Program-made: the position numbers and the translations under genes | Part shown: piece by piece, positions 2,064-57,898 of the stretch | How positions within the stretch are numbered: the stretch's first letter is position 1 | Layout of the letters: each line of letters starts with the position of its first letter | NCBI GenBank assembly: GCA_944326335.1 | Contig: CALVDM010000014.1 | Location: 1 to 64,000, forward strand | Length of the DNA stretch: 64,000 nucleotides | From: an uncultured Bacteroidales bacterium | GTDB lineage: Bacteria > Bacteroidota > Bacteroidia > Bacteroidales > UBA932 | Reading direction: 5' to 3' | The notes under the pieces: generated by a model | The model's input: the letters and a program-made list of their open reading frames with translations, nothing else | Databases searched by the model: none | What the model was told of the DNA's origin: nothing

Positions 2064-2648
2064 ATGTCCTGGGAAGGAATACACGGAATAGACCAGCAGA
2101 TAACCCTGGCCATCAACAGCCTGCACTGCGGATTCACGGATAGCGTTATGGTGTTTTTCTCGAGCATACCGGTCTGGATACCGATGTATGCCGTTGTGGC
2201 AGTCTTCCTGTTCCTTAGGCTCGGATGGAAGAAGGCCACGGTTGCGGTACTCTCCATTGCGCTCACTTTCCTTTTCTGCGACCAGCTGGCCAACCTGTTC
2301 AAGGACGGCATCGCCAGACTCCGGCCATGCCACGACGAGGCCATGATGGCATCGGGGCTCAGGGTGCTGGAAGGCAAGGGCGGACTTTACGGATTCTTTT
2401 CCGGTCACGCATCCAATGCCTTCGGTTTCGCTGTAAGCTCCTCGATGGGATTCAGGAATGACTGGCGGCTGAAATACCGGGGATATTCGGCGTGGATATT
2501 CTTCTGGGCAGCCATGGTAGCGCTGAGCAGGATATTCGTCGGCAAACACTATTTGGGAGACGTGCTTGCAGGCATTGTCGCCGGCACGTTGATAGGACTT
2601 GCCTGCGGCTTCACCGCAAGGAAAATCATCGGTAGAATCAAGGAATGA
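2064..2648 (+). CDS. PAP2-family membrane phosphatase
   Basis: A 194-residue polytopic membrane protein of the type 2 phosphatidic acid phosphatase family. The three signature motifs are present: K-x6-RP (KDGIARLRP, about residues 79-87), SGH (FFSGHAS, about 112-118) and SR-x5-H-x3-D (SRIFVGKHYLGD, about 153-164). Members dephosphorylate undecaprenyl diphosphate, lipid A or phospholipids at the outer face of the inner membrane; the substrate cannot be told from sequence. Its stop overlaps the next ATG (ATGA at 2645-2648), so it is probably translationally coupled to the dehydrogenase gene. The envelope-sugar neighbours fit a role in undecaprenyl-phosphate recycling or lipid A modification. 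Confidence 0.9.
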   Translation: MSWEGIHGIDQQITLAINSLHCGFTDSVMVFFSSIPVWIPMYAVVAVFLFLRLGWKKATVAVLSIALTFLFCDQLANLFKDGIARLRPCHDEAMMASGLRVLEGKGGLYGFFSGHASNAFGFAVSSSMGFRNDWRLKYRGYSAWIFFWAAMVALSRIFVGKHYLGDVLAGIVAGTLIGLACGFTARKIIGRIKE

Positions 2649-3955
2649 CGACTGAGGACTATATGGAAAACGGGAAGATTACAGACAGCATCAGGATTGC
2701 CGTCATCGGGCTCGGATATGTAGGTCTGCCGCTCGCAAGACTGTTTTCGACAAAATTCAGGACCATAGGCTATGACACCGACAAGGCCCGGACAGAAGCC
2801 CTGTCCTCGGGGCACGACGGCACGCTCGAAGTCGACGACAGGCTCCTGAAGGAGGCGATAACCGCGCACGGACTCGTATGCACTTCCGACATCACGAAGA
2901 TAAGGGAGTGCAATTTCTACGTCGTGGCGGTACCTACCCCGGTGGATATCAACCATAATCCGGACCTCACCCCGCTGAGGAATGCCAGCAGGATGCTCGG
3001 CACCATAATAAAGAAGGGAGATATCGTGGTGTTCGAATCCACGGTCTATCCGGGTGTGACGGAAGAGGAATGCGTCCCGATAATAGAGGAAGTGTCCGGA
3101 CTGGAATACAACACCGGCTTCTTCGCAGGGTATTCGCCGGAAAGGGTGAACCCGGGGGACAAGGAGCATACCGTGGAGAACATACGCAAGATAACGTCCG
3201 GCTCAACACCGGAAGTGGCGGACATCGTGGACAAGGTCTACAGCGAAGTCCTCGAGAACGGCACATACAGGGCATCCTCAATCAAGGTGGCGGAAGCTGC
3301 GAAAGTGATAGAGAACAGCCAGAGAGACATCAACATAGCGTTCGTGAACGAGTTGTCAAAGATATTCTCGCTGATGGGGATAGACACTCTCGAAGTCCTC
3401 GACGCCGCCGCCACGAAATGGAATTTCATCAAGATGAATCCCGGCCTGGTCGGCGGGCATTGCATATCGGTTGACCCGTACTATCTCGCACAATGCGCAC
3501 AGAGACACGGCTACAACCCGGAGATAATACTTGCCGGGAGGCGTGTCAACGACAGCATGGGTGCCTATGTGGCGAACCAGACAATAAAGCTGATGCTCAA
3601 GAAAGGAATCCAGGTCCTCAAATCGAAGGTGATAATCATGGGATTCACTTTCAAGGAGAACTGCCCGGACGTCAGGAACACCAAGATAATAGACATTTAC
3701 AGGTCACTTCAGGAATACAATGTGGACATAACGGTCTATGACCCGTGGGCGAGCAAGGACGTGGTAAGGAAAGTCTACGGGATAGACATCGTGGACAAGC
3801 TCCCTTCCGGGAAGTTCGATGCGGCGATAGTTGCTGTCGCCCACGGACAGTTCAGGAGGCACGAAGTGGACATGGACGCGCTGCTGAACCCTGTACACGT
3901 GATATACGACGTGAAGGGAATCCTGCCGAGGGAAATAGTGGACGGGAGACTCTGA
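2645..3955 (+). CDS. wbpA: UDP-N-acetylglucosamine/mannosamine 6-dehydrogenase (WbpA/WecC type)
   Basis: An NAD-dependent UDP-sugar dehydrogenase that oxidises C6 of a UDP-HexNAc to the uronic acid in two steps. The Rossmann motif GLGYVGLPLA lies near residues 22-31, and the catalytic cysteine is C273 in GGHCISVDPYY, the form typical of the HexNAc-specific WbpA/WbpO/WecC/TviB branch. Length (436 residues) is normal. The ATG at 2645 overlaps the upstream stop; a second ATG at 2663 is possible. Because wbpB-, wbpE- and wbpD-like genes follow directly, I favour UDP-GlcNAc dehydrogenase (WbpA) over a ManNAc enzyme. No 2-epimerase gene is nearby to argue otherwise. Confidence 0.88.
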   Translation: MTTEDYMENGKITDSIRIAVIGLGYVGLPLARLFSTKFRTIGYDTDKARTEALSSGHDGTLEVDDRLLKEAITAHGLVCTSDITKIRECNFYVVAVPTPVDINHNPDLTPLRNASRMLGTIIKKGDIVVFESTVYPGVTEEECVPIIEEVSGLEYNTGFFAGYSPERVNPGDKEHTVENIRKITSGSTPEVADIVDKVYSEVLENGTYRASSIKVAEAAKVIENSQRDINIAFVNELSKIFSLMGIDTLEVLDAAATKWNFIKMNPGLVGGHCISVDPYYLAQCAQRHGYNPEIILAGRRVNDSMGAYVANQTIKLMLKKGIQVLKSKVIIMGFTFKENCPDVRNTKIIDIYRSLQEYNVDITVYDPWASKDVVRKVYGIDIVDKLPSGKFDAAIVAVAHGQFRRHEVDMDALLNPVHVIYDVKGILPREIVDGRL

Positions 3956-3974
3956 ACACATAAAGACAGATACG

Positions 3975-4955
3975 ATGGCAAATTTCGCATTGACGGGAGC
4001 TGCAGGCTACATAGCTCCGAGACATCTTAAAGCCATAGCGGACACCGGCAACAGGCTGGTGGCGGCACTGGACAGATTCGACAGCGTTGGCCGGCTCGAC
4101 AGTTTTTTCCCGGACTGCGCTTTCTTCACCGAACAGGAGCAGTTCGAGGCATATATCGACAAGTTGAAAGGCACTCCGGACGAGGTGCAATGGCTTTCGG
4201 TCTGCACGCCGAACCACACTCATGTCCCGTTCTGCAGATACGCTCTGAAGAACGGCATGGATGTAATATGTGAAAAGCCGGCCGCCCTGCATTCCCGGGA
4301 CATAGAGGAACTCATGAAGCTCGAGGAGGAGACGGGACACAAGGTCTTCAACATACTCCAGCTCAGGCTCCACGACAGCATCTCGGCACTGAAGAAGAAG
4401 ATCGACGAAGGCCCGGCGGACAGGAAATACGATGTGCAGCTGACATACATCACCTCCAGGGGGAAATGGTATTATGCATCATGGAAAGGCGACAACCACA
4501 AGAGCGGAGGCATTGCCACCAACATCGGGGTTCACTTCTATGACATGCTGCAATGGATATTCGGGCCTGTGGAGGAGAATATCGTACATGTCTCGGATTT
4601 CGACAGGGTTGCAGGAAGGCTCGAGCTTGAGAAGGCGTCCGTGAGGTATTTCCTGAGCATCAACGGGGACTGCCTGCCGCCGAATGCCGTGCAGGGAGAA
4701 AAAAGGACATACAGGACACTCGACATCGACGGTGACGAGTTCGAGTTCAGCCAGGGTTTCACTGAACTGCACACGAAAAGCTACATGGACATCCTTGCCG
4801 GCAAAGGATTCCGGGTGTCCGAATCCATGGGCAGCATAAGGATAGTCGAAGACATAAGGAATGCCGTACCTGCAGGGCTTACGGACGACTGCCATCCGCT
4901 TGCAAGCCTGCCTGCAGGCAGACATCCTTTCGGATGGACAGACGTAAAATACTGA
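3975..4955 (+). CDS. wbpB: Gfo/Idh-type UDP-GlcNAcA 3-dehydrogenase (WbpB-like)
   Basis: A 326-residue NAD-dependent oxidoreductase. The nucleotide-binding start is unusual (ALTGAAGYIAPRHLKAI, residues 4-20), matching the WbpB/WlbA variant rather than the plain GxGxxG of most Gfo/Idh proteins. EKP at 100-102 supplies the conserved lysine. WbpB oxidises C3 of UDP-GlcNAcA to the 3-keto sugar, regenerating its NAD with 2-oxoglutarate, and passes it to the WbpE aminotransferase, which is the next gene here. It lies 19 bases after the dehydrogenase gene, within one operon. Confidence 0.88.
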   Translation: MANFALTGAAGYIAPRHLKAIADTGNRLVAALDRFDSVGRLDSFFPDCAFFTEQEQFEAYIDKLKGTPDEVQWLSVCTPNHTHVPFCRYALKNGMDVICEKPAALHSRDIEELMKLEEETGHKVFNILQLRLHDSISALKKKIDEGPADRKYDVQLTYITSRGKWYYASWKGDNHKSGGIATNIGVHFYDMLQWIFGPVEENIVHVSDFDRVAGRLELEKASVRYFLSINGDCLPPNAVQGEKRTYRTLDIDGDEFEFSQGFTELHTKSYMDILAGKGFRVSESMGSIRIVEDIRNAVPAGLTDDCHPLASLPAGRHPFGWTDVKY

Positions 4956-4960
4956 CACCC

Positions 4961-6109
4961 ATGGCAGAGAAGATAAAAATGGTGGACCTCCAGGGTCAGT
5001 ACATGAGAATCAGGGATGAGGTGGATGCAGGCATACGCGAGGTCATCGGCAGCGCAGCCTTCATAAACGGGCCAGCCGTGGGACAGTTCCGCGAAAATCT
5101 CGGCAGATATCTCGGCGGAATCCATGTTATACCGTGTGCAAACGGCACTGACGCCCTTTTCATAGCCCTGCTCTCTCTCGGGCTCAAGCCTGGGGACGAG
5201 GTCATTGTCCCGGCATTCACATACGTCTCGTCGGCAGAAGTGATAGGCCTTCTCGGGCTGACACCTGTGATGGTGGACGTAAGTCCGTCCACTTTCAATG
5301 TCACGGCAGAAAACATCCGCAAGGCTCTTTCCCCCGCCACAAAAGCTGTCATACCCGTGCACCTCTTCGGGCAGAGTTGCGACATGGAGCCGATAATGGA
5401 ACTCGCGAGGGAGCACGGCCTGCATGTCATAGAGGACAACGCTCAGTCACTCGGCGCCGACTACAGATTCAGAGACGGGCACACCGAAAAGACAGGGACA
5501 ATCGGCACTATAGGATGCACATCCTTCTTCCCTTCCAAGAACCTCGGATGCTATGGAGACGGGGGTGCCGTGTTCTGTCACGACGACGCGCTGGCAGAAA
5601 GGATTGCAATGATAGCGAACCACGGGCAGAAAGTGAAGTATCACCACACCGTGCTCGGATGCAATTCGAGGCTCGACACCATACAGGCTGCCGTGCTGAA
5701 CGCCAAGCTGCCGCATCTGGACAGCTATTCTCAGGCAAGACGCTCTGCAGCAGGATACTACACGGCAAGGCTGAAGGAGATTGACCCGGAAGGCAGGTTC
5801 TTCGAGACACCGGCGGAGGCTGAATACAGCACCCATGTATATCATCAGTACACACTGAAAATCCAGGGCGGGCTGAGAGACAGCCTGAAAAGTCACCTTG
5901 CCGACAGAGGCATACCGAGCATGATATACTATCCGCTTCCGCTGCAGGAGCAGGAAGCGTTCAAGGGAATAGCCGTGGCTGCGGAGGAACTCACTGTTTC
6001 CCGGGACTGCGCACGCTCGGTGCTGTCCCTGCCGATGCACACTGAACTTACGCATCAGATGCAGGATATGGTGATATCCGGCATCGCGGACTTCTTTACC
6101 GGAAGATGA
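4961..6109 (+). CDS. wbpE: DegT/DnrJ/EryC1 aminotransferase (WbpE-like)
   Basis: A PLP-dependent sugar aminotransferase of the DegT family, about 382 residues. The Schiff-base lysine is K193 in FFPSKNLGCYGDGG; the upstream DNAQS motif is also typical. By order it should aminate the 3-keto group left by the WbpB-like enzyme to give UDP-2-acetamido-3-amino-glucuronic acid. I chose the ATG at 4961 (MAEKIKMVDL), five bases after the previous stop. An in-frame ATG at 4934 would overlap the upstream gene by 22 bases and add nine residues not expected of the family. Confidence 0.9.
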   Translation: MAEKIKMVDLQGQYMRIRDEVDAGIREVIGSAAFINGPAVGQFRENLGRYLGGIHVIPCANGTDALFIALLSLGLKPGDEVIVPAFTYVSSAEVIGLLGLTPVMVDVSPSTFNVTAENIRKALSPATKAVIPVHLFGQSCDMEPIMELAREHGLHVIEDNAQSLGADYRFRDGHTEKTGTIGTIGCTSFFPSKNLGCYGDGGAVFCHDDALAERIAMIANHGQKVKYHHTVLGCNSRLDTIQAAVLNAKLPHLDSYSQARRSAAGYYTARLKEIDPEGRFFETPAEAEYSTHVYHQYTLKIQGGLRDSLKSHLADRGIPSMIYYPLPLQEQEAFKGIAVAAEELTVSRDCARSVLSLPMHTELTHQMQDMVISGIADFFTGR

Positions 6110-6110
6110 T

Positions 6111-7373
6111 ATGGAGAAAGAGTATTTTGCCCACGAATCAAGCTACATCGACGAAGGTGCTGAAATAGGAGCAGGCACCAGGATATGGCATTTCTGCCAC
6201 ATCCAGAAAGGCGCCGTCATAGGCAGGGACTGCTCGCTCGGGCAGAACGTCAACATAGGATGCAATGTAAGGATAGGCAACGGGGTGAGAATCCAGAACA
6301 ATGTGTCCGTCTACGAAGGGGTGGAACTGGAAGACAAGGTATTCTGCGGCCCTTCGTGCGTCTTCACCAACGTCACCATCCCCCGCGCCGGCTTCCCTGT
6401 AAACGGCAATTACACAAGGACACTTGTCAAGGAAGGAGCATCCCTGGGGGCCAACTGCACCATCGTGTGCGGACATACGGTCGGAAAATGCGCCATGATA
6501 GCTGCAGGAGCAGTCGTGACTCACGATGTTGGAGACTATGCCCTCATGGCAGGTGTCCCGGCTAGACAGACCGGATGGGTGTGCGAGTGCGGGAAGAAGC
6601 TCGGCAGGGATCTCAGGTGCTCGTGCGGCAGAGTCTACAGGCTGTCAGGAGGGGTACTGAGCCAGGCCGCAGCAGAAGAGGCTGCCCATCCTTCAGTCAA
6701 GGACTCCGGCACGGCAGGAAAGATGCTGGCAGGCAGGCTCAGGATAATCTATGAAGACAAGTGGCTGATAGTCGTGGACAAGAAATACGGGCTTCCCACC
6801 ATATCGACGGGGAAAAGCGGAGAACTGACTGCCTATTCGATACTTTACGACCATGTGGCCAGGGCTTCAAGGGGCGGAAGGGTGTTCATTGTGCACCGGC
6901 TCGACAGGGACACGTCAGGACTCCTTGTCTTCGCAAAGGATGAGCAGACCAAATTCATGCTCCAGGAAGACTGGAACAGCAATGTGCTGGAACGTGGCTA
7001 CACTGCCGTGGTGGAAGGCCGGCCCGAAAAGCCGGACGGAAGAATCGTGTCATGGCTGAAAGAGAATCCGAAGTCCCTGAAGATGAGTTCTTCGCCATAC
7101 GACAACGGAGGAAAGGAAGCAATCACCGAATACCATCTTGTCAGCTCCAGAAACGGGTTGTCCCTCGTGGACATAAAGCTCGAGACCGGCAGGAAGAACC
7201 AGATAAGGGTGCAGTTCTCGGCCATGGGTCATCCTGTTGCCGGAGACAGGAAATACGACGCCGCCACCAATCCTTTCGGAAGGCTCGCCCTGCACGCCGG
7301 CAGCCTCTCATTCCGTCACCCGCGCACCGGAGAAGTGCTGTCATTCAGCTCTCCTGCCCCTTTCAGACTTTAG
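6111..7373 (+). CDS. Fusion: WbpD-like N-acetyltransferase + RluA-type pseudouridine synthase
   Basis: One uninterrupted 420-codon frame encodes two normally separate proteins. Residues 1-155 are a left-handed beta-helix acetyltransferase (hexapeptide repeats such as IGAGTRIWHF and IGNGVRIQNN) closest to WbpD, which N-acetylates the 3-amino group made by WbpE. Residues 158-172 carry C-x-C-x9-C-x-C, a possible zinc ribbon. Residues ~205-420 are an RluA-family pseudouridine synthase with HRLDRDTSG at 262-270 (catalytic Asp D265) and the family C-terminal block ETGRKNQIRVQ. A linker of about 30 residues joins them without a stop; M205 (ATG at 6723) could be an internal start. The gene begins one base after wbpE and overlaps the convergent bioB by 11 bases. 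Confidence 0.88.
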   Translation: MEKEYFAHESSYIDEGAEIGAGTRIWHFCHIQKGAVIGRDCSLGQNVNIGCNVRIGNGVRIQNNVSVYEGVELEDKVFCGPSCVFTNVTIPRAGFPVNGNYTRTLVKEGASLGANCTIVCGHTVGKCAMIAAGAVVTHDVGDYALMAGVPARQTGWVCECGKKLGRDLRCSCGRVYRLSGGVLSQAAAEEAAHPSVKDSGTAGKMLAGRLRIIYEDKWLIVVDKKYGLPTISTGKSGELTAYSILYDHVARASRGGRVFIVHRLDRDTSGLLVFAKDEQTKFMLQEDWNSNVLERGYTAVVEGRPEKPDGRIVSWLKENPKSLKMSSSPYDNGGKEAITEYHLVSSRNGLSLVDIKLETGRKNQIRVQFSAMGHPVAGDRKYDAATNPFGRLALHAGSLSFRHPRTGEVLSFSSPAPFRL

Positions 7374-8340
7374 CAGGCTGCCGGAGTTCATAGCCGGCAG
7401 AACGTATCCTCGCGAAATCAGTGTCGATGTCCGCACCGGCGGTGGTAAGCATGTCGCCCATTATCGCAGCATTGATGCCTGTGCGGTATGCCGCCAAGAC
7501 AGTCTGCTCTGACAGCCGCGCCCTGCCTCCCGCAAACCTGAGTGCTGCGTCCGGAAGGATGAAGCGCAGAATTGCTATTGTCCTGAGTATCTCGTCTTCC
7601 GGAATGAGAGGCTCGTTTTCAAGCGGAGTGCCTGGAATCGGGGCAAGGATGTTCACAGGCACGGATTTCACACCGAGGTCCCTGAGCAGGAAAGCCAGTT
7701 CCATACGCTGGCCGAGGCTCTCCCCCATCCCTATTATTCCGCCGCTGCAAATCTCCAGTCCTGCGTCCCTGGCAGCTTTCAACGTCGCTATCTTGTCTTC
7801 CGTTGTATGCGTGGTGCAGAGAGTCCCGAACCACGACGGGGCAGATTCCAGATTGCAATGATATCTCGTTATGCCTGCCTCCCTGACGGCTTTCATGTCT
7901 TCTGCAGACAGGAGTCCGGCAGACAGGCAAAGTGAGATGTCAACCCTCTCCGCGACAACCTTCACAGACCTGCAAAGCCGGGCCACCTCTTTCCCGGACA
8001 GCCGTTTCCCGCTCGTGACAATGGAAAAACGTCCGATACCCCTTTTCCTGCTGCACTCCGCAGCTTCCAGAAGCCTTTCCGTGTCCACCAGCGGATATTC
8101 ACTGATTACGGCATGGTTATGTGCGGACTGGGCGCACCACTTGCAGTCCTCGGGACAATGCCCGGATTTGCCGTTTATAATAGAGCAGGTGTCGAACACC
8201 CTCGATGCGCATGCCTCCGTTATCCTGGATGCACAATCGCAAAGGTGCCCGAGAGGAGCAACGGCAAGCTTTTCCGCCTCCATCCCGGACACACCTTTAC
8301 CTGTGGCGGCAACTCTGTCCGCCAGCTGGAAGATATCCAT
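7363..8340 (-). CDS. bioB: Biotin synthase
   Basis: A radical SAM enzyme that inserts sulfur into dethiobiotin. The SAM-cluster motif C-x3-C-x2-C is at C62, C66 and C69 (GHCPEDCKWCAQS). At 325 residues it is full length and has the usual SxG and asparagine-containing barrel motifs (for example YHCNLES near 159-165). No other biotin genes are in the window. It lies 21 bases downstream of fba on the same strand, so it is probably cotranscribed with it. Its last 11 bases overlap the end of the convergent WbpD-RluA fusion gene. Confidence 0.95.
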   Translation of the reverse strand: MDIFQLADRVAATGKGVSGMEAEKLAVAPLGHLCDCASRITEACASRVFDTCSIINGKSGHCPEDCKWCAQSAHNHAVISEYPLVDTERLLEAAECSRKRGIGRFSIVTSGKRLSGKEVARLCRSVKVVAERVDISLCLSAGLLSAEDMKAVREAGITRYHCNLESAPSWFGTLCTTHTTEDKIATLKAARDAGLEICSGGIIGMGESLGQRMELAFLLRDLGVKSVPVNILAPIPGTPLENEPLIPEDEILRTIAILRFILPDAALRFAGGRARLSEQTVLAAYRTGINAAIMGDMLTTAGADIDTDFARIRSAGYELRQPAKV

Positions 8341-11117: not shown

Positions 11118-12527
11118 TCATTCAACGAAGGCGTGACGGTAACCCTTTATCCTGTCCCAGCCTCCGCGGGTGAAATCGGGTATCTCCACCGGAGCGCTCC
11201 CGTTCTCTATCGAGATGGCGGACAGTTCCGTCAGACAGCACCACTCGGCAAGGTCGTAGACATCCATGTCGAGCGGAAGTCCGTTGCGCAGACAGTATAT
11301 GAGCCTGTAGTCCATTATGTAATCCATGCCTCCGTGGCCTCCGACCTTCCGGGCGGTATTCTCCAGTTCCTTCTGTATAGGGTGCTTGTACTTCTCCATC
11401 AGGGCTTTCTTCACATCCTCAGGGACGAAATCATGCGCGGACAGGTTCTCTATGTCTATCTCCCCTGACTTCCCTTCCCCGTCCTGCACAAGGCCGTCAG
11501 ACATTGAGGCATCTATCATGTAGCCCTCCACAGGATATTTGTTGGCGAATCCTTTCGTGCCTGTGAGCTGGTAGAGCCTGTTGTACGGCCTCGGGGTCAC
11601 GACATCGTGCTGTATCATGATTGTCTTGCCTTTCTCGGTGCGTATCATGGTCATCGTGTGGTCCCCGTTCCGGAAATCAGGAGCCTCCTCGCCACGGTTC
11701 TTTTCATAATATTCCCTGCCGTTCACGGCCTTGGTGTCCATCGACACGAGGAAATTCATCTTGTCTCCCCTGTGTATGTCGAGAGCCTGGCAGACCGGCC
11801 CGAGACCGTGCGTAGGATAGACGTCTCCCCTGTGGTCCCTGTTGTAGAGCAGCCTCCAGTCGTGCCAGTATTCGTCCCAATACTCCTCGAGATTGTGGAT
11901 ATACGCACCTTCAGCGTGCAGAATCTCACCGAAGAGCCCGTGCTGCGCCATGTTCAGTGTCGTAAGTTCGAAGAAGTCATAAACGCAGTTCTCCAGCTGC
12001 ATGCAATGCTTCCTCGTACGCTCCGACGTGTTCACAAGTTCCCATATTTCCTTCATGTTCATTGCAGCCGGCACCTCGATAGCCACATGCTTTCCATGCT
12101 CCATGGCATACTTCGCCATCATCACATGGCTTTTCCAGTCTGTTGCGATATACACGAGGTCTATGTCGTCACGCTCGCACAACTGCTTCCACACCTCCTC
12201 GTCCCCGCTGTATCCAGCAGCCTCGTGCCGGCCGTTCCCGACGAGAATCTTCTGGCATTTCTCCACATTGGCGGGCTCGACATCGCACAATGCCACTATT
12301 TCAGTGCCGTCTATGTGGCACATGCGTCCTACCGCGCCTGGGCCGCGCATCCCGAGACCTATGAAGCCTATACGTACGGTATCGATTGCCGGTGCGGCGA
12401 ATCCGAGCATGTCCTGCTGACCTGCCGGACGTTCAGGGACTTCCGTCCTGATGATGGAATCCGGGGAGCCGCAACCGGCACACAGGGCCAGCATTGAGGC
12501 TGAGATGAAGTAGATGAATTTTTTCAT
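11118..12527 (-). CDS. GH109-like, NAD-dependent glycosidase lipoprotein
   Basis: A 469-residue lipoprotein: the lipobox LCAGC puts the lipidated cysteine at C19. A Gfo/Idh-type Rossmann fold follows (IGFIGLGMRG, about 53-62). The segments EVPAA (E151-) and YPTHGLGPVCQ (237-247) with the later HRGD are hallmarks of family GH109, whose founding member is an alpha-N-acetylgalactosaminidase using tightly bound NAD+. Members act on terminal alpha-GalNAc such as mucin or blood-group A epitopes. Export as a lipoprotein fits an extracytoplasmic glycosidase, not a metabolic dehydrogenase. Its ATG overlaps the rluA stop (12524-12527), so the two are cotranscribed. Sugar specificity is inferred only. 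Confidence 0.82.
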   Translation of the reverse strand: MKKFIYFISASMLALCAGCGSPDSIIRTEVPERPAGQQDMLGFAAPAIDTVRIGFIGLGMRGPGAVGRMCHIDGTEIVALCDVEPANVEKCQKILVGNGRHEAAGYSGDEEVWKQLCERDDIDLVYIATDWKSHVMMAKYAMEHGKHVAIEVPAAMNMKEIWELVNTSERTRKHCMQLENCVYDFFELTTLNMAQHGLFGEILHAEGAYIHNLEEYWDEYWHDWRLLYNRDHRGDVYPTHGLGPVCQALDIHRGDKMNFLVSMDTKAVNGREYYEKNRGEEAPDFRNGDHTMTMIRTEKGKTIMIQHDVVTPRPYNRLYQLTGTKGFANKYPVEGYMIDASMSDGLVQDGEGKSGEIDIENLSAHDFVPEDVKKALMEKYKHPIQKELENTARKVGGHGGMDYIMDYRLIYCLRNGLPLDMDVYDLAEWCCLTELSAISIENGSAPVEIPDFTRGGWDRIKGYRHAFVE

Positions 12528-13249
12528 ATCATATCATTTATTTTGAATGTATTCCACGTTTCCGGAAGCGGAGCCTCGACAGTCATCTCCACCTTCCTGA
12601 CAGGATGCACGAAACTTATCCGCCTCGAATGCAGGCAGATGCTTCCGTCAGGATTCGACCTCGGTGCACCGTATTTCAAATCCCCCTTTATCACACAGCC
12701 CATGTCGGAAAGCTGGCACCGTATCTGATGATGCCGGCCTGTCAGGAGATGCACCTCGAGAAGCCAGTATCTGTCCGTCTTTCCGAGGAGCCTGTATTCC
12801 AGTTCCGCCAGTTTCGCATCCTTCCTCAGGGAGCCGGGACGGCACATGTACGACTTGTTCCTGGCCTCATTCCTGAAAATGTGGCCGGTAAGTCTCGCCG
12901 ACTCTGCAGGAGGGGCGGAACACACTATTGCCCAGTAATATTTGCAGATGCTGCCGGTCCTGAACATGTCGTTCAGGCGTGCGAGGGCTTTGGAGGTCTT
13001 CGCAAGCACGACTATGCCACTCACCGGGCGGTCAAGGCGGTGCGGCACTCCGAGAAACACGCTCCCGGGCTTCGCATCCCGCATTGCCATGAAAGATTTG
13101 TACAGGTCGGCAATGGTCTCATCTTCAGTCATGTCTGCCTGGACAATCTCTCCGGCCTTCTTGTTCACGACAAGAAGGTGGTTGTCCTCGTAGAGAATCC
13201 GTGCCGAGGCATCTCCATATTCTTCCTCTGACAGTGTTCTATACAGCAT
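12524..13249 (-). CDS. RluA-family pseudouridine synthase
   Basis: A 241-residue RNA pseudouridine synthase with HRLDRPVSG at 70-78 (catalytic D73) and C-terminal TGRHHQIR. There is no S4 domain, as in the short RluA group; the RNA target is unknown. The frame stays open upstream to 13372, but I start at the ATG at 13249: the extra 41 codons are Lys/Arg-rich filler, and a TATATTTG -7 box lies inside them at 13282-13275. It is the second RluA domain in the window, the other being fused to the acetyltransferase at 6111-7373. The stop overlaps the GH109-like start. Confidence 0.9.
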   Translation of the reverse strand: MLYRTLSEEEYGDASARILYEDNHLLVVNKKAGEIVQADMTEDETIADLYKSFMAMRDAKPGSVFLGVPHRLDRPVSGIVVLAKTSKALARLNDMFRTGSICKYYWAIVCSAPPAESARLTGHIFRNEARNKSYMCRPGSLRKDAKLAELEYRLLGKTDRYWLLEVHLLTGRHHQIRCQLSDMGCVIKGDLKYGAPRSNPDGSICLHSRRISFVHPVRKVEMTVEAPLPETWNTFKINDMI

Positions 13250-13274
13250 CCGGAAATGTTTTTGATTGCCGGAA

Positions 13275-13282
13275 CAAATATA
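13275..13282 (-). promoter_or_regulatory. Promoter -7 box for rluA-GH109
   Basis: Reverse-strand TATATTTG matches TAnnTTTG and would give a leader of only about 20 nt before the ATG at 13249. It also supports the shorter gene start. Confidence 0.55.
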
Positions 13283-13341
13283 AGGATATTTTTCTTTTGT
13301 CTGACTTTTCTTCCTTTGTTTGCATGATATTTTCAGTAAAA

Positions 13342-13400
13342 TAACGTCAGTTCGACGAATTATTCTGTTCAATATCAGAGATTCCGGCGAACTGACGTTA
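13342..13400. repeat. 13-bp perfect inverted repeat, 33-base spacer
   Basis: TAACGTCAGTTCG (13342-13354) is repeated as its exact reverse complement at 13388-13400. The spacer is AT-rich and the arms are not followed by a T-run, so it is not a terminator. It lies between the rluA promoter and the AT-rich leader of the ATPase gene. The rest of 13250-13665 holds only the rluA and ATPase promoters and a tandem 12-base AT repeat near 13597-13625. Confidence 0.7.
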
Positions 13401-13633
13401 CGATTTCTTCGAAATCCCTTTCCTTTTTTGTGTCACCCCCCTTAAATTCATTCCATTCATTTCATCGAATTCACGTTATATTATAAATAATACCGGCAAA
13501 CTCCTGGTATCATAAAGAGAGTCTGGAATGTCGGACCAATATCTTGCAAAGTGACAATCTGCAATGGACAAGAAACCTTATATCTTGACAATAATATTTT
13601 TATTAGTAATAAAATTATTAGTAATAATATTCT

Positions 13634-57772: not shown

Positions 57773-57898
57773 CCAAGAAGAATGTCCTGTGGACATTCGA
57801 GAGTGAGCAGATAGACTATTGTCTACGGGGGTTAAGACGGGTCAGTCTTTCGAAGAAAGACGTTTGGAGGTGACCAAAATTATTTTTTGGTCACCTCC
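57768..57898. repeat. Array of four consecutive hairpins behind the POT gene
   Basis: Four perfect inverted repeats in 120 bases: GAATGTCC/GGACATTC (57780-57798), TAGAC/GTCTA (57812-57825), GTCTTTC/GAAAGAC (57845-57861), and a 14-bp stem GGAGGTGACCAAAA (57866-57879 with 57885-57898), the last resembling a bidirectional terminator. A competing hairpin AAGAC/GTCTT (57834-57849) excludes the third. GGTGACCAA occurs directly at 57768-57776 and 57869-57877. The rest of the gap to 57949 shows nothing else. Confidence 0.7.

Follow-up and report, generated by a model that had tools for sequence, protein, structure and literature searches.

A wbpD-type acetyltransferase gene joined in frame to an RluA-family pseudouridine synthase gene in a single Bacteroidales genome

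Results

Organization of the fused reading frame

The window, that is the whole stretch of 64,000 nucleotides that was analysed, carries on its forward strand a row of genes which ends in the reading frame studied here. The row begins with two genes that we take to be Obg-like (1055–2056) and PAP2-like (2064–2648), their order being conserved in relatives, and continues with genes for a wbpA-like UDP-sugar dehydrogenase (2645–3955), a wbpB-like GFO/IDH/MocA oxidoreductase (3975–4955) and a wbpE-like DegT/DnrJ/EryC1 aminotransferase (4934–6109), found by family searches and named by family and order. These last three, for the preceding pathway steps, directly precede a frame at 6111–7373 (+) of 420 codons and one stop. 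Residues 1–185 (6111–6665) constitute a WbpD/WlbB-type hexapeptide (left-handed beta-helix) N-acetyltransferase, as judged from Pfam, PDB entry 3mqg and relatives. They are followed by a linker rich in Ala, Glu, Ser and Gly (residues 186–204, 6666–6722), by M205, whose ATG at 6723–6725 is a possible internal start of an S4-less RluA, and by the catalytic domain of an RluA-family pseudouridine synthase (residues 208–420, 6732–7370), to which orthologues are 62–71% identical. A presumably bioB-like gene (7363–8340, minus strand), again in a conserved position, is convergent with the fused gene.

The sequence-only reading had proposed an in-frame fusion of an acetyltransferase and an RluA domain at this place, and both the translation and Pfam confirm it. 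The ATG at 6723 indeed encodes M205, and the sizes of about 46, 22 and 24 kDa given earlier agree with the computed 45.6 kDa for the whole protein, 21.5 kDa for residues 1–204 and 24.2 kDa for residues 205–420. Since each half aligns almost end to end with a gene that stands alone in relatives, with identities of up to 84% (WbpD) and 71% (RluA), the fused frame is not a product of chance.

The acetyltransferase half has its best PDB relative in 3mqg (residues 8–171, E 3e-59), and Pfam places Hexapep PF00132 at residues 16–50 (E 6.9e-16). Cysteines C158, C160, C170 and C172, pointed out in the sequence-only reading, are present among others and form a CxC...CxC tail (6582–6626, +), which may be supposed to bind metal. 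Of the relatives' tails with at least 70% identity, all 82 that run as far as a stop have the four cysteines (one row lacking a stop was left out), and judged by these sequences the tail is ordinary for this WbpD subfamily; the same 82 proteins end at query positions 178–197. The WbpD half keeps 91 of 91 columns that are at least 97% conserved among 110 rows of at least 70% identity, a set in which rows are not unique by genome and from which weaker and shorter rows were dropped. Mean identity of the window to eight relatives is slightly lower than that of the relatives among themselves for all six genes of the row (wbpD 0.808 versus 0.829, wbpB 0.820 versus 0.859); the deficit of wbpD is thus nothing special, because wbpA, wbpB and wbpE show a similar one. 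The WbpD end branch (0.43) is the third longest in its tree, after L104 and L012; duplicate or partial rows were left out of the trees and the window's own duplicate, L174, was kept. In Porphyromonas gingivalis the WbpA, B, E and D proteins are described, in the available excerpt of the source, as producing UDP-GlcNAc(3NAc)A, the precursor of the sugar by which secreted proteins are anchored (PMC7468200), and by analogy the wbp genes of the window may make the same compound.

The RluA half is assigned to its family by PseudoU_synth_2 PF00849, which covers residues 219–371 (E 1.1e-29; profile positions 2–152 of 152; 104 bits versus a cut-off of 26.8), and not by TIGR00005, whose curated RluA-subfamily cut-off is missed (166.8 versus 192.7 bits). 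The TIGR00005 match begins at position 72 of the profile, whose preceding part has no counterpart here, and an ordinary RluA paralogue at 12524–13372 is also below this cut-off (138 bits). The motif HRLDRDTSG begins at H262, so that its aspartate is D265 (6903–6905), as claimed before, which from family knowledge we take to be the catalytic one. Among the 46 columns that are at least 97% conserved in 41 rows (not unique by genome; rows below 45% identity and short rows dropped), 45 are kept and the sole change is D for E at 354. The conserved aspartate is discussed in the accessible part of a structural study (PMC3919597).

The N-terminal S4 domain is absent from the fused RluA. By tblastn it was found in 15 of 16 loci of the rlu clade (L036, L061, L157 and L161–L173, the exception being L172), and by Pfam in two of three orthologues tested. 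One unfused orthologue, in G052, also has no S4 domain, and in a clade of seven rows (L018, L019, L021, L023, L025, L026, L034) at most 26 in-frame residues lie upstream of the catalytic domain, which leaves no room for S4. The identity of the RluA half to six matched relatives is 0.681, versus 0.701 among the relatives; the neighbouring genes give 0.736 versus 0.711 (bioB), 0.778 versus 0.763 (gmk) and 0.985 versus 0.980 (FBA) with the same six. With nine relatives the values are 0.679 versus 0.722 for the RluA half and 0.730 versus 0.723 for bioB. The divergence of the RluA half thus exceeds that of the matched neighbour genes by a few percent, which could reflect relaxed constraint after loss of S4 or chance. 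Its end branch measures 0.29, versus 0.27–0.35 for four other deep branches of its clade.

The window's genome holds two other RluA-like genes, which are merely 39% and 33% identical to the RluA half, and a paralogue was therefore rejected as its source; no second close copy of either half was found in this genome, which is 89.7% complete. The 33% identical gene is the paralogue named above, which lies 5 kb downstream of the fusion on the opposite strand.

GC content is 0.62 over the linker region 6663–6731, versus 0.27–0.48 in five intergenic stretches of the window. Nothing of the joint (6560–6780) recurs in the window's genome except 26 nt at the end of the linker (6699–6724), which are matched at 92% and in the same reading frame (SGTAGK) by a stretch of contig C6 within what is presumably a ROK-kinase-like gene. 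No origin of the linker was found, the C6 match being either chance or inserted DNA, and alignment of the linker with 5' rlu DNA of six relatives gave no convincing homology. A viral-contig scan with 30 bases of the joint returned 0 matches, and a promoter and terminator scan gave no interpretable signal at the joint.

Gene order in relatives

Gene order was compared in the best 80 of 245 loci, each of which holds one half; some loci were tied to genomes by identical sequences or distances. The order Obg-PAP2-wbpA-B-E-D (block 1) occurs in eight loci (L037, L038, L039, L043, L046, L049, L051, L052) and also in G350 (L157). What lies to the right of wbpD varies among the 15 genomes with this arrangement whose locus was examined (G326, G349, G110, G347, G236, G367, G041, G181, G230, G261, G114, G178, G103, G384, G350). 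A tRNA-Ala(TGC) gene is found in 10 of them, in two (G326, G349) about 1.2 kb from wbpD, where the corresponding loci L037 and L038 show intervening open frames; three (G178, G103, G384) have a CDF-type gene on the same strand, G350 has a different, convergent CDF gene, and G114 has a tRNA-Glu gene near the contig end. With four kinds of right neighbour in 15 genomes, tRNA-Ala being the commonest, the position 3' of wbpD (L007, L037–L052, L132–L160) seems to have been rearranged repeatedly in the genus.

The RluA half belongs to another conserved order (block 2), namely GNAT(-), CDF(-), S4-rlu(+), bioB(-), FBA(-), gmk(+), of which G230 and G114 (L167, L168) have all members and G236 (L166) has those up to FBA. 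In the 16 rlu-clade loci bioB is present in 10 and CDF stands beside rlu in six; the other left sides show GNAT beside rlu (one), no recognised neighbour (six) or a contig end (three). In the window, block 1 runs as far as wbpD and block 2 sets in with the RluA catalytic domain, S4 being missing.

In the relatives mapped the two blocks are separate, except in G350, where about 1 kb, holding the convergent CDF gene, separates wbpD from a complete, unfused S4-rlu on the same strand. The wbpD of G350 (L157:7155–7778) exceeds the usual family end, encoding 207 residues and overlapping the end of the convergent CDF gene, which suggests a breakpoint inside its 3' end. Since the window's genome keeps CDF with GNAT, the junctions of G350 and of the window look independent. 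Thus both steps, the approach of wbp genes to rlu (G350) and the loss of S4 (G052 and the seven-row clade), have parallels in the genus.

The window comes from one draft assembly of 61 contigs. In it the CDF gene is on contig C32, between GNAT and other genes and not beside rlu, and dut-murF-GlnRS is on contig C36, which ends at a tRNA-Ala gene with similar copies elsewhere. No remnant of S4 was found in this genome; the single match to the S4 segment, on C12, is weak (33% over 47 residues, E 0.003) and hardly seems to derive from this rlu gene.

Two dispersed repeats were observed. One, of about 200 bases and 87–92% alike in the longer matches, occurs at 13331–13483 of the window, beside the second RluA gene, at C32:9543–9748, on C17, C9, C1 and other contigs, and directly upstream of rlu in L036 (5480–5688); it could promote rearrangements. 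The other is up to about 130 bases long, lies at 57827–57895 of the window, has about 30 matches in the window's genome and is found also between murF and GlnRS in L040 (6477–6608).

Search for the same fusion in other genomes

The search for the fusion in related genomes that the sequence-only reading had called for was run, and no other open fusion turned up in the samples searched. Among the matches listed for 61 genomes, an open frame matching across both halves was seen in the window's own genome only. The outcome was the same with 400 genomes (threshold 1e-58), 331 genomes (1e-86), 398 genomes of the family (1e-92), 393 of the order (1e-92) and 395 of the phylum (1e-85); these samples overlap, scoring in the five larger scans was limited to the four or five best candidates of each genome, and the stricter thresholds could miss a fusion whose halves have both diverged strongly. 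The best 80 of 245 loci likewise contained no fused locus. Three candidates were rejected: in L111 (match to residues 8–273) wbpD is closed by a stop and followed directly by wbpB, in G103 a 555-residue open frame contains a wbpD of 185 residues from ATG to stop, and the match in G311 (residues 122–417) crosses six stops. The literature searched, with thin coverage of subscription journals, contained no report of a WbpD-RluA fusion.

Discussion

Our data indicate that a lineage-specific rearrangement probably joined the 3' end of wbpD to an rlu gene cut at or in its S4 part, presumably giving one protein in which both halves would work independently. The gene order, the loss of S4 and the altered surroundings of CDF are consistent with a real rearrangement whose breakpoint lay at the 5' part of rlu or within it. 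The sequence-only reading had offered a recent fusion with two working halves, and this fits best: the joint lies where two conserved blocks meet, no other open fusion was found, and the conserved residues are nearly all kept. The word recent goes beyond what can be dated, the nearest relative with both genes being as distant as 84% (WbpD) and 70–71% (RluA) identity. The same reading had counted separate genes in all close relatives against the fusion; the relatives examined do have separate genes, which shows that the fusion is lineage-specific but does not make it false.

The course of events could have been the following. A chromosomal rearrangement would have joined the 3' end of wbpD, the last gene of a wbpA-B-E-D operon that by homology serves UDP-2,3-diacetamido-2,3-dideoxy-glucuronic acid, to rlu at the S4-coding part or within it; S4 would have been lost and the CDF-GNAT genes moved elsewhere, while the frame stayed open. 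A single polypeptide of 45.6 kDa with two independently working domains is the most likely product. Acetyltransferases of this family form trimers through the beta-helix, and the acetyltransferase part would presumably do so as usual, with the RluA domains hanging from the trimer on flexible linkers and each part keeping its old job. Such a fusion would be tolerated because RluA domains can work without S4, as does E. coli RluA, which has none, and as the S4-less relatives suggest. No functional link between the two activities would be needed.

One could argue that two products are made, the full protein and a free S4-less RluA of about 24 kDa started at M205. The sequence-only reading had raised M205 as a second start that yields two proteins; a free RluA could arise in this way, but a free WbpD of 22 kDa would need proteolysis, since the halves have no stop between them and the choice of a start codon cannot release it. 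M205 stands approximately where the S4-less L021 and L023 can start (MRLIYEDDW, MGKRLKIVYEDDW), and AGGAAAG is found just before its ATG. However, AGGAAAG abuts the ATG, and a ribosome-binding site touching the start codon is too close to be usual. Additionally, GC is high in the 25 bases before the ATG (AT 0.36), though it is just as high before nadD, and the GC content of the linker is coding-like. Thus we consider internal initiation unlikely.

Similarly doubtful is an artefact at the joint, that is a chimeric contig or a base error that hides a stop between genes which are really separate. The fusion is a singleton in every set searched, the assembly is a draft, and the contig with dut stops at a tRNA-Ala gene. 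A TGA stands in the +1 frame at 6658–6660, where the WbpD proteins of relatives end, therefore a single indel error nearby would suffice to close the gene. However, a base error alone would neither change the gene order nor remove S4. A chimeric contig, for its part, is opposed by the CDF gene, left of rlu in six of 16 clade loci and here joined to other genes on a separate contig; by the failure to find the S4 part in the window's genome, as expected of a truly cut rlu; by joint DNA that is not repeated; and by the similar GC of the WbpD and RluA halves (0.56 and 0.55). Therefore a real lineage-specific rearrangement is favoured over a chimeric contig.

It is highly improbable that the RluA half, deprived of S4, is a passenger on its way to losing function, so that only WbpD matters. 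According to the available part of the structural study (PMC3919597), the S4 domain of the related RluB binds the RNA loop, and that of RluD is flexible with respect to the catalytic core; loss of S4 may therefore alter the affinity for RNA and could weaken substrate binding, and the slight excess of divergence of the RluA half points in the same direction. Against this, the near-invariant columns are kept with one exception, the end branch is like other deep branches of its clade, and a seven-relative S4-less clade and an S4-less orthologue exist.

An equally remote idea is that the fusion was selected as a bacterial counterpart of Rib2, the trimeric acetyltransferase replacing S4 as scaffold of a three-headed pseudouridine synthase and tying RNA modification, in amount or activity, to cell-surface sugar synthesis; we found no evidence of a functional link between sugar acetylation and RNA modification, and a conserved bifunctional fusion of that kind would occur in more than one species, while this one was seen in its own genome only in the samples searched.

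The event thus favoured illustrates how a chromosome rearrangement can create a fusion protein whose parts are still separate in relatives: one gene was cut within a domain, and what remained of it was attached in frame to the last gene of an operon, both halves staying well conserved. It also cautions that a domain fusion need not mean a functional link, and the present one is a curiosity from one genome and not an established two-function enzyme. If one protein is really made, it would be a natural test of the need for S4 in this RluA subfamily.

Both domains come from known families, and it is their combination, seen once, that appears to be new. With the WbpD/WlbB UDP-2-acetamido-3-amino-2,3-dideoxyglucuronate N-acetyltransferases the window protein shares sequence similarity over residues 8–171 and the partners wbpA, wbpB and wbpE; it differs from WbpD of the 3mqg type (titled lipopolysaccharides biosynthesis acetyltransferase) by the C-terminal RluA domain. 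With RluA-family pseudouridine synthases (PDB 11wx, 2i82 for RluA, 1v9f for RluD) it shares the catalytic domain and HRLDRDTSG, but compared with most of its orthologues it has lost S4 and carries a sugar acetyltransferase in its place. A precedent for the arrangement is yeast Rib2, whose pseudouridine synthase domain is of the RluA type. In Rib2, as described in the available excerpt of the source, this domain is fused to a deaminase of the riboflavin pathway (PMC8256712), so that a pseudouridine synthase domain and a small-molecule biosynthetic enzyme are combined as in the window. According to the same excerpt, however, the domain of Rib2 is N-terminal and the fusion is usual in yeasts, whereas in the window the order is reversed, the partner is another one and the fusion is found in one genome.
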